Origin: Pelagibacterales bacterium SAG-MED15 | GTDB taxonomy: Bacteria > Pseudomonadota > Alphaproteobacteria > Pelagibacterales > Pelagibacteraceae | Assembly: GCA_014654065.1 (NCBI GenBank) | Contig: JACWDM010000006.1 | Span: forward strand, 1 to 64,000 | Reading direction: 5' to 3' | DNA length: 64,000 nucleotides | Shown here: piece after piece, positions 44,690 through 50,403 of the stretch | Layout: every line of letters begins with the position of its first letter | Numbering within the stretch: the first letter of the stretch is position 1 | The notes under the pieces: model-generated | Told to the model about the DNA's origin: nothing | Database searches by the model: none | What the model saw: only the letters and a program-made list of their open reading frames with translations | Position numbers and translations under genes: made by a program

Positions 44690-45719
44690 AAAAATCCTTA
44701 GATCGGTAAAAACTATGGGTTTTAAATATATAGAATTACCTTCAGTAATTGAAGCAAATCATATTGTTAAAAGATCCGGGGAAAATTTTAGAAAGTTTAT
44801 ATTTTCATTTTCTGATCAAAATGGAAATGAATTATGTTTAAGGCCTGATTTAACGATTGTTTCTTGCTTGAGATATTTGGAAAATAAATTTAAGGGAAAA
44901 GAAAAAATATTTTATAGTGGACAGGCATACAGAAAATCTCAAAATAAAAAAGATTCAATTATAAGAAATCAAATTGGATTTGAGATAATCGGCTCACAAA
45001 ATGAAAAAAATGACGATAAGGAGATAATAAATACTTCTTTGAAATCATTAAAAAATTTAAAATATTCATCTGGGACATTAACACTTGGTAACGTTGAGAT
45101 ATTCAATACTCTAATATCTAAATTAGATATTCCAAAAAGATGGAAGTTAAGACTTTCTAGACATTTTTGGAGAGAGGAATATTTCAATGACTTATTAAAA
45201 AGATTAGAAACAAATTCAGATGTCGACCCAACGATTGTTGAAATTGATAAAAAACGTTATTTTAAAATGTTGAAAGAAAATAAATCATCAATTATTGCCG
45301 GTAGATCTATAGAAGAAATTTTGAGTAGATTTGAAAAAAAAATTAAAGACCCAAGACGGCCAAGTAAAGGAAAAAATGTATCAAAAATTATTAAAGAATT
45401 TTTAAAAATCAAATGTCCAATCAATAAAGCTTCAGGAGAGTTAAATAAATTTTTTAAAAAATATAAAATTAATCTAGTTGTAGACCAAAAATATTTTCCT
45501 ATATCAAATAATAAAATTTCAAAACTTAATGTTATTTTTTCAACATCTTTTGGAAGACAACTTGAATATTATACAGGGATGGTTTTTAAAATTGATATTA
45601 AATTAAAAAACAAAGTGACGAATATTTATAATGGTGGAAGATATGATCATTTAATTTCTGATCTAGGGTCAACAAAAGAAATACCTGCGGTTGGAGCTGC
45701 AATAAATTTAAATAATTAA
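44667..45719 (+). CDS. hisZ: ATP phosphoribosyltransferase regulatory subunit
   Basis: 350 aa HisRS-like paralogue lacking the full synthetase. It keeps LRPDLTIVSCLRYL and YSGQAYRKSQ, similar to class II motif 2, and RQLEYYTGMVFKI. HisZ makes the short HisG active and histidine-sensitive. Overlaps hisS by 23 bases, with hisG three bases later, so first-step histidine synthesis is co-expressed with tRNA-His and HisRS. Confidence 0.92.
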   Translation: MKLKNLSEKILRSVKTMGFKYIELPSVIEANHIVKRSGENFRKFIFSFSDQNGNELCLRPDLTIVSCLRYLENKFKGKEKIFYSGQAYRKSQNKKDSIIRNQIGFEIIGSQNEKNDDKEIINTSLKSLKNLKYSSGTLTLGNVEIFNTLISKLDIPKRWKLRLSRHFWREEYFNDLLKRLETNSDVDPTIVEIDKKRYFKMLKENKSSIIAGRSIEEILSRFEKKIKDPRRPSKGKNVSKIIKEFLKIKCPINKASGELNKFFKKYKINLVVDQKYFPISNNKISKLNVIFSTSFGRQLEYYTGMVFKIDIKLKNKVTNIYNGGRYDHLISDLGSTKEIPAVGAAINLNN

Positions 45720-45722
45720 CTT

Positions 45723-46409
45723 ATGAAAAATATAATCAATATAGGAATTCCAAGTAAGGGTAGGTTAAGAAAAGACGTTTTAAATATTTTTAAAAATAAA
45801 AGATTAAATCTTATTTCAGAAAGAGGAAAGAGGGATTTAATTGGTTCAATTAAAAACATAAAAAATGTAAAAATACTTTATTTACATGCAAGAGAAATAG
45901 TTGAAAGATTGGGTGATGCCTCTTTAGATATTGGCTTTTCAGGGTATGATTTACTTAGAGAAAGTGAAATCAATACGCAAAAAAAAATTAGTGTTGTAAA
46001 AAAATATGAATTTGGAAAAGCAAATTTGGTTGTTGCTATCCCAGATCCATGGATTGATGTTCAAACAGTAGCAGATCTTGAGGAAATTGCGTTTGAATTT
46101 AGAGATAAAAAGAAAAAAAGATTAAGAGTTGCAACAAAGTACCCAAATTTAACTAGAGAATTTTTGTTTTCAAAAGGCGTTACACAATTCCAAACTGTTG
46201 AAAGCTTAGGTGCTACTGAAGCATATCCCTTTACAGGTTCTGCTAATTTAATAACAGATATTAGCTCTACAGGAGAAACAATTAAAAGTAATAATTTACG
46301 TATTTTAAAGGATGGTCAAATTTTAAAATCCCAAGCATGTATTTTTGTTTCAAAAAAAAGTTTAAAAAAAAAGGGATTAAAAAAACTAACTAATTTACTT
46401 TCCGAGTAA
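45723..46409 (+). CDS. hisG: ATP phosphoribosyltransferase, short form
   Basis: 228 aa, first step of histidine synthesis (ATP + PRPP). The short HisG lacks the C-terminal regulatory domain and needs HisZ, encoded three bases upstream. IGIPSKGRLRKDVL, DIGFSGYDLLRE and VATKYPNLTREFL are typical, and the PRPP loop region DISSTGETIKSNNL is near the end. Last gene before the 362-base gap that precedes the nuclease cassette. Confidence 0.95.
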   Translation: MKNIINIGIPSKGRLRKDVLNIFKNKRLNLISERGKRDLIGSIKNIKNVKILYLHAREIVERLGDASLDIGFSGYDLLRESEINTQKKISVVKKYEFGKANLVVAIPDPWIDVQTVADLEEIAFEFRDKKKKRLRVATKYPNLTREFLFSKGVTQFQTVESLGATEAYPFTGSANLITDISSTGETIKSNNLRILKDGQILKSQACIFVSKKSLKKKGLKKLTNLLSE

Positions 46410-46526
46410 TTTATCTTTAAAATAAACTAAGATTATTTTAATAACATCTAAATTTCTTAAAATTGCGCAAAGGGTTACAATACAACCTATTATAAATATA
46501 ATTTTTAAAAATAAATATAATTCCAT
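46395..46526 (-). CDS. possible 43-aa single-span membrane protein
   Basis: Minus-strand ORF with start ATG at 46524-46526 and stop at 46395-46397, overlapping the hisG end by 15 bases. It begins MELYLFLKIIFIIGCIVTLC and has one hydrophobic span followed by a basic tail (VYFKDKLLGK). No clear ribosome-binding site. It points away from the promoter at 46561. It could be real or chance in AT-rich sequence; nothing else occupies this part of the gap. Confidence 0.25.
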   Translation of the reverse strand: MELYLFLKIIFIIGCIVTLCAILRNLDVIKIILVYFKDKLLGK

Positions 46527-46560
46527 TAAAAATATTAAAAGTTTTTACCTTAAATAATTA

Positions 46561-46589
46561 TTGACATTTAAAACTAAGTAATATATAGT
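46561..46589 (+). promoter_or_regulatory. near-consensus sigma-70 promoter of the nuclease cassette
   Basis: TTGACA (46561-46566), exactly 17 bases, then TATAGT (46584-46589): a perfect -35 and a 5 of 6 match at -10. It is the best promoter seen in the window. A start near 46596 would give a roughly 175-base leader before the ATG at 46772, containing both copies of the tandem element. Confidence 0.75.
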
Positions 46590-46604
46590 TATTTTACTAA
46601 GTTA

Positions 46605-46738
46605 AAGCTACTTATTTAGATGCAAACAATTTAGTTTCTTATAAAATTTCATCTAAATATTAATACTTTAAATTGGAACGAAGCTACTTGTTTAGACGCG
46701 GAGTTTATAATTTATTTTAAATTTCCTCACTAAATAGT
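46605..46738 (+). repeat. two tandem copies of a stem-loop leader element (76-base period)
   Basis: Copy 1 starts at 46605 and copy 2 at 46681. Both begin AAGCTACTTnTTTAGAyGC (n = A/G, y = T/C) and end in AAATTTC followed shortly by CTAAATAnTAA. Copy 1 folds into a 10-bp stem, TATTTAGATG (46613-46622) with CATCTAAATA (46650-46659), around a 27-base loop. Copy 2 can pair TTTAG (46691-46695) with CTAAA (46730-46734), extended by ACT/AGT. The middle of the loop is poorly conserved. No known riboswitch family recognised. Confidence 0.7.
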
Positions 46739-46771
46739 AACTCAAAAATAAAAACTAAAGAGGTACTAAAT

Positions 46772-47077
46772 ATGAGAAATGATCTTAATGAAATAATCAA
46801 AGAAAGATTAGAAAATAGGTGTTTATGGAGATCTTATTTGAAATGGCGATTGACCCATAAAAATTTATCAAATTTGGCAAAAAAGGAGTTTTATAAGGAT
46901 AAACTATTTTTAGGACTTATAATTAAACTATACTTCTTACCTTATAATTTATTTAAATATTTTATTTATGTTAGTGAGAAACATAAATTAGATATGATTA
47001 ATAAGGAAATTGAAATTTTAAATAAATTTCAAATTGATAAAAATGATACAAAATTATTAAATGGAGAAAAAAAATGA
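46772..47077 (+). CDS. 101-aa protein of unknown function, first gene of nuclease cassette
   Basis: 101 aa, basic. GAGG (46760-46763) lies 8 bases before the ATG, a good ribosome-binding site. The middle (about 48-68, LGLIIKLYFLPYNLFKYFIY) is hydrophobic/aromatic and could be a membrane-associated helix. The N-terminal half is rich in Arg, Trp, Lys and Asn. No family recognised. The end overlaps the DUF2130 start by 4 bases (ATGA), so the two are translationally coupled and probably work together. Confidence 0.7.
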   Translation: MRNDLNEIIKERLENRCLWRSYLKWRLTHKNLSNLAKKEFYKDKLFLGLIIKLYFLPYNLFKYFIYVSEKHKLDMINKEIEILNKFQIDKNDTKLLNGEKK

Positions 47078-48273
47078 GTCAAAAAGTTAAATGTCCAAGA
47101 TGTAAAAACATCTTTTCTATAGAAGATGCTCATGAACAAGAAATTAAAAATTTAAAAGAAAGAGCAAAAAAAGAAGCTTTAGCAGAAGCACAAGTAGAAA
47201 AAGCAAAAGCTGATAAAGAAATTAAATTAAAAAAACAATCATTAGAAGCTGAAAAAGAAAAACTGAAGAAAGATGCAAAAAAAGAAGCTTTAGCAGAAGC
47301 ACAAGTAGAAAAAGCAAAAGCTGATAAAGAAATTAAATTAAAAAAACAAGCATTAGAAGCTGAAAAAGAAAAACTCAAGAAAGATGCAAAAAAAGAAGCT
47401 TTAGCAGAAGCACAAGTAGAAAAAGCAAAAGCTGATAAAGAATTAAAACAACTAAAATTAGATTCAGAAAAAAAGGCAAGAAAGGAAAAAGAGGCTCATC
47501 AAGAAGAAATGAGGAAGAAGGACATAGCTCATCAAAAAGATGTTGCAAGAATGAGAAAAAAAGCAGAACAGGCTGCAATGGCCGCTAGCCAATCACCGAT
47601 TGAAAGAAAAGGTGAAGTCAAAGAAGAAATAATTGAGGAATTTTTAAAAAAAGAGTTTCCCGATGACAAATATAAAGATGTAGAAAAAGGAAAAAAAGGT
47701 GCAGACGTAATACAATTTGTTCAATCTAAAAATCAAACAATAGGTAAAATTCTTCACGAGAGTAAAGACGTTATAAAGTTTGATGAAAAATGGGTTGGTA
47801 AACTTTTAAATGATATGTCTATGGAAGACGCAATAATTGGTATCATTTTTACTGAAGCAATGCCAAACAAATCTAATGGTTTAGTTGAGGAAAGAGAGGG
47901 TGGGCGAATAATTATTTGTTCAGAATATCCAATATATAGACAAATAATTTCAACTCACAGAAAATTAATAAAACAAATTCACTTAAATAAATTAGATAAT
48001 AGTGATGCTTCCTCAAAATTAGAAAGTCTATATAACTATATTAATAGCAATGAGTTCAAACTACAGTATAGAAAAGCTATGAAAGGAATTAATAAAGAAG
48101 GTTCCCAAATAGATAAAGATGAAAGGTCATTTGAAATACAGATAAAAAATCGTAAACAAAATCATGGAGAAAATAAGAAAAATATTAATTCAATTATTAC
48201 ATCTATAATTTCAAATAGTCATTTGTCAGAAGATCTCCTTGATATAGAGAGCTCAGACAACTTAATAGAATAA
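47074..48273 (+). CDS. DUF2130 protein (coiled coil plus PD-(D/E)XK-like domain)
   Basis: 399 aa. The N-terminus has KCPRCKNIF, a single Cys pair (7 and 10). Residues 31-170 form a long highly charged coiled coil that contains perfect or near-perfect 37-residue repeats. The C-terminal domain has GADVIQ (Asp211) and GKILHESK (Glu229-x-Lys231), a D-(x)n-ExK arrangement seen in PD-(D/E)XK nucleases and typical of DUF2130. A DNA-acting nuclease role is inferred, not shown. Lies between the 101-aa protein and a RecB-type nuclease gene (15-base gap). Confidence 0.85.
   Translation: MSQKVKCPRCKNIFSIEDAHEQEIKNLKERAKKEALAEAQVEKAKADKEIKLKKQSLEAEKEKLKKDAKKEALAEAQVEKAKADKEIKLKKQALEAEKEKLKKDAKKEALAEAQVEKAKADKELKQLKLDSEKKARKEKEAHQEEMRKKDIAHQKDVARMRKKAEQAAMAASQSPIERKGEVKEEIIEEFLKKEFPDDKYKDVEKGKKGADVIQFVQSKNQTIGKILHESKDVIKFDEKWVGKLLNDMSMEDAIIGIIFTEAMPNKSNGLVEEREGGRIIICSEYPIYRQIISTHRKLIKQIHLNKLDNSDASSKLESLYNYINSNEFKLQYRKAMKGINKEGSQIDKDERSFEIQIKNRKQNHGENKKNINSIITSIISNSHLSEDLLDIESSDNLIE
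47167..47442 (+). repeat. 111-bp in-frame tandem repeat inside the DUF2130 gene
   Basis: Units 47167-47277 and 47278-47388 differ at only about two bases (TCA/GCA and CTG/CTC), and a partial third unit runs 47389-47442. Each unit codes for KKEALAEAQVEKAKADKE plus about 19 further residues (37 in total). Near-identity at synonymous positions points to recent expansion rather than old protein repeats. Confidence 0.95.
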
Positions 48274-48288
48274 TTAGAAGAAAAAACT

Positions 48289-48969
48289 ATGAAATGGAAT
48301 AATAAATTTAATTATCCAAAATCATCAAGATCTATTGAAGATGGTTTGAGAAAATATTTATTTGGAGATCGTAAACTTCCAAGTGTTACATCTATTTTAA
48401 GTGCTACTAAATCTGAAGAGGATAAAGCATCACTAGAATTGTGGAAGCAAAGAGTAGGTTACAAAGAAGCTAATAGAATAAAAACTGAGGCTTCATCTAG
48501 AGGTTCCTCTCTCCACTTATACATTGAAGATTATCTTAAAGGTCGAGTGAATGAAAGTTTTTTTGAAAGCAATGAACAATATAAAATTATGGCCAAAGAA
48601 ATAATTGAAAAAGGTATTAAAGGCAAATTAGAAGAAATTTATGGAATTGAGGAAACATTATATTACCCAGAAAAGTATGCTGGTACCGCAGATTTAATTT
48701 GCAAGTATCAGGGCCAAGATGCTTTAGTAGATTTTAAACAATCAAATCGACCAAAAAAATCAGATTATATTCAGGATTATTTTTTACAACTTGGAGCATA
48801 TACTTTAGCTCATGACGTAGTGCATGGAACAAAAATGAAAGCTGGAATTATACTTTTGTGTACTGTGGATAACTTATATCAAGAATTTAAAATAGAAGGT
48901 AATGAATTAGAAATGTACCAAAATTTATTTTTAGGAAGAGTTAAAAAATTTAATGAAATGAAAAATTAA
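48289..48969 (+). CDS. RecB-family PD-(D/E)XK exonuclease (MGME1-like)
   Basis: 226 aa. RecB/Cas4-type nuclease motifs in order: RGSSLH (His76), AGTADLI (Asp135), LVDFKQS (Asp148-x-Lys150) and QLGAY (Gln167-Tyr171). This is the pattern of mitochondrial genome maintenance exonuclease 1 and phage-type RecB nucleases, which cut single-stranded DNA ends. LPSVTSILSAT at the N-terminus also fits MGME1-like proteins. 15 bases behind DUF2130; the ExoI-like gene follows 3 bases later. Confidence 0.85.
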   Translation: MKWNNKFNYPKSSRSIEDGLRKYLFGDRKLPSVTSILSATKSEEDKASLELWKQRVGYKEANRIKTEASSRGSSLHLYIEDYLKGRVNESFFESNEQYKIMAKEIIEKGIKGKLEEIYGIEETLYYPEKYAGTADLICKYQGQDALVDFKQSNRPKKSDYIQDYFLQLGAYTLAHDVVHGTKMKAGIILLCTVDNLYQEFKIEGNELEMYQNLFLGRVKKFNEMKN

Positions 48970-48972
48970 TCT

Positions 48973-50403
48973 ATGAATTTAGTTATTTGGGATATCGAAT
49001 CCTCTAGTGCAAATACTGATTTTGGAAGCATTATTGAAATTGGCGGTATACTAGTTGATGAAAATTTTAAGGAAAAAGATCGTTTTAATTTAAGATGTCG
49101 CTTACCAGAGGGAGAAATTCCTCAGGCAATGGCCTTAATAGTTAATAAAACAAGTATTGATCAGTTAACAAAGGTAAATTTAAGCCATTACCAAATGTTA
49201 GGGGAGGTAGAAAAAATATTCAAAAAATGGAGTCCGGCAATTTTTCTTGGATGGTCTAATATAGGTTTTGATGATGAGATGATAAGAAAAGAATTTTTTA
49301 AAAGTATAAGATATCCATATATTACTAATGCAACACCCAATAAACGGCATGATGGACTTAATATAGCAAGAGGAGCTTATGCTATAGATCCATCGGTTCT
49401 TGAAACAGAAATAAATCAAAAAAATAATCCTGTTTTTAAGCTAGAGTCTTTAAGTAGAATGAATGGTTTTGATTCAAGCGATGCGCATTCAGCACTTGTA
49501 GATTCTCAGCTGACTGGCAAGGTATTAAATTTAATCAAAACAAGACAACCAAACACTTGGAACAACTTTCTGAGAACCGCAAATAAATCAGATACTGAAA
49601 CAATATTTAAAAAAGAAAAAATCATTACTTTAAATGAATATTTTTATGGAAAATCTAGATTATATCTTTGCGCACCACTTCATCCAAATCATTGCATTCA
49701 CCCAATATATCAATGGGGACAGGCTATAGATTTGCGTGTTGATGTAGAGCCTTTAATAGACATGTCCATAAATGAACTTAAAGCTGAGATGAAAAAGACA
49801 CCTAAATTTTTACGAACAATTAGATCGAATAAAGCCCCAATTATAATTGATGCAGAGTATGGAATGAAAGTAGAACCATATAATGCGATGGATCCAAGCT
49901 TAATTAAAAAAAGAGCGAGCTTAGTAAAAGAAAATGAAGAATTTTCTAAAAAAATTTTAACTGCATTAAGAGAAATTGCTGAAGAAAAAGAACAATTAAA
50001 ATCCCAAGAAGATATTTACGCAGAAGAAAGTATTTATAAAAAATTTACATCAAATAAAGATACAGCCTTATTTCCTGCATGGCATGCAGCACCATGGAAA
50101 GAAAAATTAAAATTATTGGATAAATTTGATGATGATAGACTTGTTGGTTTTGGAAAAAAAATAATTTATCAAGAGGCTCCAGAAGTTTTACCAGAGGACA
50201 TGTTCCGTAAAATTAAAAGTGAAATTGCAAGACGGATATTAAGTGAAAAAAAAGAAAAATTTTGGACGGTAAAGGAATGTTATTTTGAAATTGATAATTT
50301 AAGAAATAAGTATTCAGAAGAAAATGATGAAGAAAAATTAAAATTTTTAGATCAACTTAACGATTTCGTCATGTTAATACAAAAAAAATACGAAAATTCA
50401 TAG
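48973..50403 (+). CDS. sbcB: exodeoxyribonuclease I-like DEDDh exonuclease
   Basis: 476 aa. DEDDh catalytic residues: Asp7 and Glu9 in WDIES, Asp100 in NIGFDDEM, His172 and Asp177 in AHSALVDSQLT. The length and C-terminal accessory regions resemble ExoI, a 3'-5' single-strand exonuclease in recombination and mismatch repair. Three bases after the RecB-type nuclease, so both end-trimming nucleases are co-expressed. trxA follows at 50438. Confidence 0.88.
   Translation: MNLVIWDIESSSANTDFGSIIEIGGILVDENFKEKDRFNLRCRLPEGEIPQAMALIVNKTSIDQLTKVNLSHYQMLGEVEKIFKKWSPAIFLGWSNIGFDDEMIRKEFFKSIRYPYITNATPNKRHDGLNIARGAYAIDPSVLETEINQKNNPVFKLESLSRMNGFDSSDAHSALVDSQLTGKVLNLIKTRQPNTWNNFLRTANKSDTETIFKKEKIITLNEYFYGKSRLYLCAPLHPNHCIHPIYQWGQAIDLRVDVEPLIDMSINELKAEMKKTPKFLRTIRSNKAPIIIDAEYGMKVEPYNAMDPSLIKKRASLVKENEEFSKKILTALREIAEEKEQLKSQEDIYAEESIYKKFTSNKDTALFPAWHAAPWKEKLKLLDKFDDDRLVGFGKKIIYQEAPEVLPEDMFRKIKSEIARRILSEKKEKFWTVKECYFEIDNLRNKYSEENDEEKLKFLDQLNDFVMLIQKKYENS

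Follow-up and report, generated by a model that had tools for sequence, protein, structure and literature searches.

The locus examined here lies in a SAR11-like genome, in a window (the whole stretch of DNA that was analysed, 64,000 nt) in which 362 nt separate the stop of hisG (Pfam HisG) at 46409 from the next ATG at 46772. It raises the question of whether two similar copies of a short element in this gap form a leader that controls the genes downstream and, if so, through which structure. The genes 3' of the leader are, in order, a 101-aa ORF, a DUF2130 protein, a phage-type exonuclease and an ExoI-like enzyme (Table 1), and the closest named relatives of the DUF2130 protein belong to Pelagibacteraceae. 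Every part described in the original prediction was present in the sequence, including the tandem cores with a period of 76 nt, the CCTC at 46725-46728 and the GAGG of the ribosome-binding site. The fold of the window leader by itself was unremarkable (z -1.22; 24 of 200 shuffles were as good), and the two copies are considered to be beyond chance because the element recurs in many relatives at the same operon.

Table 1 Positions in the window of the leader parts and of the genes downstream of them
Feature	Coordinates	Strand	Basis or partner
Promoter-like site TTGACA-N17-TATAGT	46561..46589 (TTGACA 46561-46566; TATAGT 46584-46589)	+	sequence
P0 flanking stem, copy 1: 5' strand ACTAA	46596..46600	+	partner TTAGT 46631-46635
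Copy 1 core 17-mer GCTACTTATTTAGATGC	46607..46623	+	model match E 2.0e-8 (window among the model's sequences)
Copy 1 distal arm CATCTAAATA (46650-46659)...CTTTAA	46650..46671	+	can pair with 46602-46623
Copy 2 core 17-mer GCTACTTGTTTAGACGC	46683..46699	+	model match E 3.4e-7 (window among the model's sequences)
Copy 2 distal arm ACTAAATAGTAACTC	46729..46743	+	possible partners: copy 2 core or ribosome-site region
GAGG ribosome-binding site of the 101-aa ORF	46760..46763	+	sequence
101-aa ORF, without convincing family	46772..47077	+	profile searches
DUF2130 protein	47074..48273	+	Pfam PF09903 1.3e-21
Phage-type exonuclease gene	48289..48969	+	phrog_298 'exonuclease' 3.8e-49
Exodeoxyribonuclease I (ExoI/SbcB-like)	48973..50403	+	Pfam PF08411 3.5e-15; NCBIfam PRK11779 9.7e-40, under its cut-off

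A DNA search of 200 relatives gave matches at E<=0.01 in 94 of them. Many of these were short A+T-rich stretches, and the informative matches among the 94 relatives were those spanning the copies; the 15 such loci that were inspected in context were all located in leaders of exonuclease genes. The shared core, GCTACTnGTTTAGAyGC, was found 3' of a TTGAC motif in the leader of a single operon, which begins either with exoI or with rmuC/DUF2130 ahead of exoI. The pattern GCTACTNGTTTAGAYGC, with one mismatch allowed, occurred in 84 of 300 same-genus genomes, compared with 1 for the reversed control pattern, and in 79 of 300 after five coding-like matches were dropped, which confirmed that homologues of the element exist in related genomes. 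A constant position before the same gene or genes, as expected of a cis-regulatory leader, was observed for 89 of 94 distinct sites, which lie on the same strand as, and 5' of, the genes of this operon, and for 81 of the 99 genomes of the order with a match to the covariance model described below. The 17-mer matches outside the 89 (L050, L066, L091, L102 and L107) were in coding-like sequence where the operon is absent. An SOS (LexA) box was rejected as a candidate, as all of the 94 sites read, except these five, were in the leader of this single operon.

Two arrangements were observed. In the commonest, mostly one copy precedes exoI, about 40 nt past the stop of the phage-type exonuclease gene; in the other, the element is located before rmuC (an identity confirmed by Pfam for two loci), DUF2130 or the 101-aa ORF, and two copies are often present. 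The expectation of tandem structured copies before an ORF was thus borne out as far as a conserved leader element is concerned, but the tandem is dispensable, a single copy before exoI being the commonest form. A type III toxin-antitoxin system was likewise considered; no ToxN-like family was found among the downstream genes of the window, and single copies are common elsewhere. The DUF2130 protein of the window (47074-48273) and a Pfam RmuC protein (L010, 1998-3047) occupy the equivalent operon slot in close relatives.

The ExoI gene was found in 174 of 201 genomes of the genus and in 30 of 30 good genomes; the element is therefore retained by only part of the lineages. We picked 40 exoI loci without the exact 17-mer, plus G241. 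In 30 of these exoI loci, the exonuclease gene and exoI touch or overlap, leaving no room for a leader. The other ten carry variants, namely GCTAATTGTTTATATGC and GCTAATCGTTTATATGC, AGTACTTGTTTAGATCT with GGTACTAGTTTAGATCC, and GTTACTTGTTTAGACAC. In one relative, a single TAG interrupts the ExoI frame (G079, contig C1, 54114-55592).

The covariance model was built from 44 sites and searched in 297 genomes of the order at E<=0.1. Matches in the leader of this operon came from the genus of the window, plus one genome of a second genus in its family, in which the first and last positions of the core (1/17) are A-T (L227); three of the 81 genomes (G039, G080 and G086) were counted by coordinates beside exoI only. 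All 13 model matches in a sister family (f2) were inside long ORFs (8 + 5) and were dropped, as were weak matches outside this operon in five genomes (G460, G447, G488, G033 and G516) and a second match in G386. At the gathering score of Rfam 15, the window gave three tRNAs alone and no family for the element, and the region gave two chance matches only at E up to 10.

The promoter-like site ahead of the core had been called the best sigma-70 promoter in the window. It is the sole 11-of-12 match on the + strand, but by match count it is only tied for best because two 11-of-12 matches are present on the - strand. Promoter-like sites in the region showed no excess over chance (10 observed, 10.2 expected). 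Across relatives, 36 of the 37 non-redundant first copies have TTGAC 38-48 nt 5' of the core, where about 0.014 would be expected per site; this spacing is variable, and a fixed DNA geometry is therefore disfavoured. Judged by eye, most exoI leaders have a poor -10 box, and a good one is present in the hisG-linked leaders and in some of those linked to rmuC. Many single-copy exoI leaders (e.g., L012, L024 and L053) keep TTGACT with a poor -10, which is AGAAGA or AAAAGA at 17 nt and is recurrent in itself, possibly reflecting an unusual promoter type. An intrinsic terminator or attenuator, i.e., a GC-rich hairpin followed by a U run, was not found in 45700-47200 of the window.

To describe the structure of the core, we used a gap-free alignment of 44 non-redundant sites. 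The pairs 1/17, 2/16, 5/13 and 6/12 were standard in all 44 sites, and RNAalifold, unaided, returned the identical four pairs. Three of the four were changed on both sides (GC/AU; CG/GC/UA; CG/AU), with no one-sided changes. The predicted covariation in the stems was thus seen, though it comes from few independent two-sided events, because the sequences are related. The invariant core positions (3, 4, 6, 9-12 and 14) are asymmetric save for pair 6/12, and the four pairs leave a near-invariant, asymmetric 13-nt loop, UACUnGUUUAGAn in most copies. The small host hairpin by itself is very weak, with a mean of -1.9 kcal/mol for the host cores. The original prediction that the arms are conserved and the loop is not needs to be amended: the 5' strand, which contains the 17-mer, is the most conserved part, while the 3' arm drifts in sequence and keeps its ability to pair.

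Two further pairings extend beyond the core. The flanking stem P0 scored -5.6 in window copy 1, compared with -2.0 for shuffled sequences (p 0.025). Over the 44 sites its mean was -3.99, compared with -3.25 +/- 0.21 when partners were swapped and -2.10 when they were shuffled, and 0 of 300 swaps were as good. Taken singly, P0 reached p 0.05 in 11 of 44 sites, and most second copies, like the L042/L058 clade, have a poor P0. The second possible pairing is between the core, together with its left flank, and an arm farther downstream. This core-arm duplex had a mean of -12.0 over the 44 sites, compared with -6.7 after shuffling and -9.24 +/- 0.32 after swapping of the downstream partners (0 of 200 as low), and reached p 0.05 singly in 29 of 44 sites. 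Taken together, the conserved core-arm pairing and the core pairs show one conserved strand with two alternative partners.

In the window, the stem of copy 1 was stronger than that of copy 2, as had been described: the core-arm duplex of copy 1 scored -12.7 versus -7.7 for shuffles (p 0.027), and copy 2 was weak throughout (duplex p 0.117; fold z -0.68; ribosome-site pairing p 0.074). Long hairpins of second copies were compared in 10 of the 11 listed, one near-duplicate being omitted. Those of six of the 10 lineages reached z -3.9 to -6.6, and those of the window, L172, L239 and L112 (z -0.28 to -1.36) were no better than shuffles. In the alignment of second copies, 8 of 26 pairs were changed on both sides, a count reached by 5 of 500 shuffles and one that is favoured because the structure was derived from the very sequences scored.

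Pairing of the CCTC in copy 2 with the GAGG ribosome-binding site had been put forward as a means of control. As a general mechanism this did not hold up, since the complementarity is not conserved across the tandem leaders and the effect of masking the core has no consistent sign. Complementarity of the ribosome site to the preceding stretch gave p 0.02-0.08 in the three leaders of the window's clade and 0.036 in L038, and p 0.41-0.66 in L011, L014, L171 and L172, which make up four of the 8 tandem leaders. With the core masked, modelled access to the ribosome site went down in 6 and up in 1 of the 8 tandem leaders, and went up in 14 and down in 5 of 30 single-copy leaders. Sequestering of the ribosome site was therefore rejected as a common output, as only half of the tandem leaders (4 of 8) showed complementarity at p 0.02-0.08, and three of these four belong to one clade. 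What stood of the proposed cis-regulatory RNA before the nuclease cassette is a conserved, covarying leader element, without the ribosome-site mechanism.

The loop of the host core was also found in viruses. The exact 17-mer matched 70 viral stretches, many of them in open frames, and the viral set was restricted to sites with stems. In at least 16 viral loci, stems of 6-15 bp carry the identical 13-nt loop, UACUUGUUUAGAU. The loop TACTTGTTTAGAT had 146 distinct viral sites among the matches listed, with a stem of at least 6 bp in 18 and at least 9 bp in 11; among the matches listed for the controls, stems of at least 6 bp were found at 0 of 53 sites for the reversed loop and at 1 of 73 for the sister loop TACTAGTTTAGAT. 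The viral set comprises 16 of the 18 stem-bearing sites among the matches listed and includes several near-duplicates, so there are perhaps eight truly different stems. L265, whose site falls within a 113-codon open frame, and L521 were left out of the viral alignment, although both have stems of at least 6 bp. The stems include GGCGGGC, GTGGCGGC, TGGGGGC, GTCGGTTGC, GCCTGGGCC, GGCGCC and others. In this alignment, 96.9% of positions in pairs were paired and 7 of 10 pairs were changed on both sides; these counts are biased because the sequences were chosen for having stems, and the fair test is the comparison of stem lengths with the control loops. Rfam 15 gave no match for 14 viral loci.

The viral hairpins differ from the host cores in strength and context. 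They range from -13.8 to -21.6 kcal/mol, and a downstream complement of the loop is absent on average (mean z +0.48), whereas host cores have one (mean z -1.11). A same-strand ORF stop lies 16-25 nt ahead of the loop in 13 of 16 viral loci. The gene before the hairpin ends in EEMPF, EDMPF, EEIPF, EELPF or EDIPF in eight loci (L268, L270, L297, L311, L315, L325, L331 and L451), endings of small viral genes that we take to resemble the acidic tip of single-strand DNA-binding proteins, which is bound by ExoI. ExoI relatives were not found in viral contigs with six exact peptide patterns.

SAR11 cells are the presumed hosts of the hairpin-carrying viruses, and both carriers tested have pelagiphage relatives. 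The closest annotated phages to the exonuclease of L331 are 023Pt_psg01 (53%) and the Pelagibacter phages HTVC027P (51%) and HTVC023P (47%), and the window exonuclease (48289-48969) shares 47% identity with the gene of this viral locus. The terminase of L277 is 60% identical to that of an uncultured marine phage and 59% to those of pelagiphages and rhizobial phages. By eye, 023Pt_psg01 (L541) and HTVC027P (L540) have, like the carriers, a hairpin on a GC-rich stem in the equivalent gap, but their loops are unlike UACUUGUUUAGAU, and the viral model scored these two phages only weakly, with E 0.11 and 0.01 for matches located elsewhere. When these two loops were sought in the fetched host loci, scattered near-matches were found and none was recognised in an exoI leader. 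The 30-nt viral hairpin had no match at 80% coverage in isolated phages. A longer second inverted repeat, approximately TGATCCCTGGTCC...GGACCTGGGATCA, was seen by eye behind the hairpin of HTVC023P-like viruses in a long non-coding gap (L280, L289, L311, L315 and L331; L540, about 17.4-18.2 kb, - strand; L541, about 16.1-16.7 kb, - strand).

In cellular genomes, a model of the viral hairpin matched 67 of 250 genomes of the genus, at the known leaders, at two coding-like sites and at ten weak places, all ten of which were within long open frames. In 337 genomes of the class it gave 6 weak matches, none convincing: four lacked either the loop on a stem or any similar loop, L575 was a chance-like half match, and that in G802 was in an open frame.

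On balance, the element is probably a structured RNA close to the promoter of the SAR11 exoI operon, and a putative factor would bind its loop in competition with the core-arm fold. This trans-acting factor, most likely an RNA-binding protein, would recognise the 13-nt loop. By holding the loop in the small hairpin form it would prevent the long core-arm hairpin, and the competition between the two would set the expression of the nuclease genes. The viral hairpin carries the same loop locked on a strong stem, without the competing arm, as would be expected of a binding site or decoy. The identical loop in the host leader and in marine viruses suggests a shared control element. More tentatively, one factor may read the same loop in host and phage, with the host element acting as a switch on the exonuclease leader and the phage element as a decoy, or with the host element being a copy of a phage signal.

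A DNA operator is the strongest alternative, because at the DNA level the paired changes are symmetric too. A dimeric repressor would bind the 17 bp GCNNCTNNNNNAGNNGC, a partial palindrome just behind the promoter that is present twice in tandem leaders, and the symmetric changes would represent co-evolution with the repressor. Helix-turn-helix dimers typically bind a dyad of 17 bp whose half-sites are spaced by about 11 bp, the pairs 1/17, 2/16 and 5/13 change strictly symmetrically without wobble pairs, and the TTGAC motif is close ahead of the site. We nevertheless consider an operator somewhat unlikely, given that the invariant positions are mostly asymmetric (e.g., T3 versus the variable position 15), that all 89 operon sites share one orientation, and that the 38-48 nt distance to TTGAC does not keep the helical face; the core-arm pairing is moreover conserved beyond the 17-mer, and viral stems extend to 15 bp.

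A metabolite riboswitch, in which a ligand such as a nucleotide released by the nucleases stabilises the small hairpin, would account for the leader position, the invariant unpaired bases and the two mutually exclusive folds. It appears unlikely, since this operon is the sole carrier in the genomes searched, with no metabolic gene linked, viral copies are mostly behind stop codons, and the core is small for an aptamer and has no Rfam match. A processing or stability hairpin, whose loop would be read by an RNase of host or phage origin or by a protein that protects RNA, would set mRNA half-life in host leaders and at phage 3' ends. It would fit the strong viral stems, the location directly behind an ORF stop in 13 of the 16 viral loci and, in the host, the proximity to the expected 5' end; a 13-nt invariant loop is needless for mere stability, and the alternative core-arm pairing of the hosts is left unexplained, which makes this quite unlikely. 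HK022 put RNAs are small phage leader hairpins that act on operon expression, and a hairpin that RNA polymerase or a NusG relative reads to prevent termination or pausing would likewise be promoter-proximal at the head of an operon, found also in phages and present in one or two copies. Such a role is very improbable here, as no terminator-like site was found in 45700-47200 and viral copies are mostly at gene ends.

Comparisons of intergenic regions have already identified structured leaders in this group of organisms. For Ca. Pelagibacter ubique, the parts of Meyer et al. 2009 (PMC2704228) considered here give the motifs rpsB, rhtB, pntA, bablM, SAR11_0636, SAM-V and glycine, list the intergenic region before the 'exonuclease' SAR11_1165 without a motif, and name none for exoI or rmuC, unlike the present element. 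The LoaP dfn hairpin, as described in the portion of PMC12691694 considered, is likewise a small leader hairpin acting on operon expression, with a loop of the UNCG type and a terminator that has to be read through, whereas the SAR11 exoI-leader element has a 13-nt loop with inner pairs and no terminator was found. PMC12753301 covers SAR11 infection transcriptomes (HTVC027P and HTVC022P on HTCC1062), and exoI and rmuC are not named in the portion considered. No paper describing the element was found in the open-licence literature. Leaders with two competing folds under the control of a bound protein are of a known kind, in which exclusive structures share one conserved strand; the exoI-leader element differs in that its loop recurs in viruses. 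Protein-binding or switching leaders are therefore known as a kind, and a loop common to a host nuclease leader and viral hairpins is new.

SAR11 genomes have very little non-coding DNA and few known regulators, and a leader element kept across many species therefore marks a real control point, here over DNA-degrading enzymes. If one factor does read the loop in both host and phage, a phage decoy would pull it off the nuclease leader, or a host leader that copies a phage signal would sense infection. The identical viral loop offers a concrete connection, open to testing, between infection and the control of host nucleases in cells and viruses that are among the ocean's most abundant.
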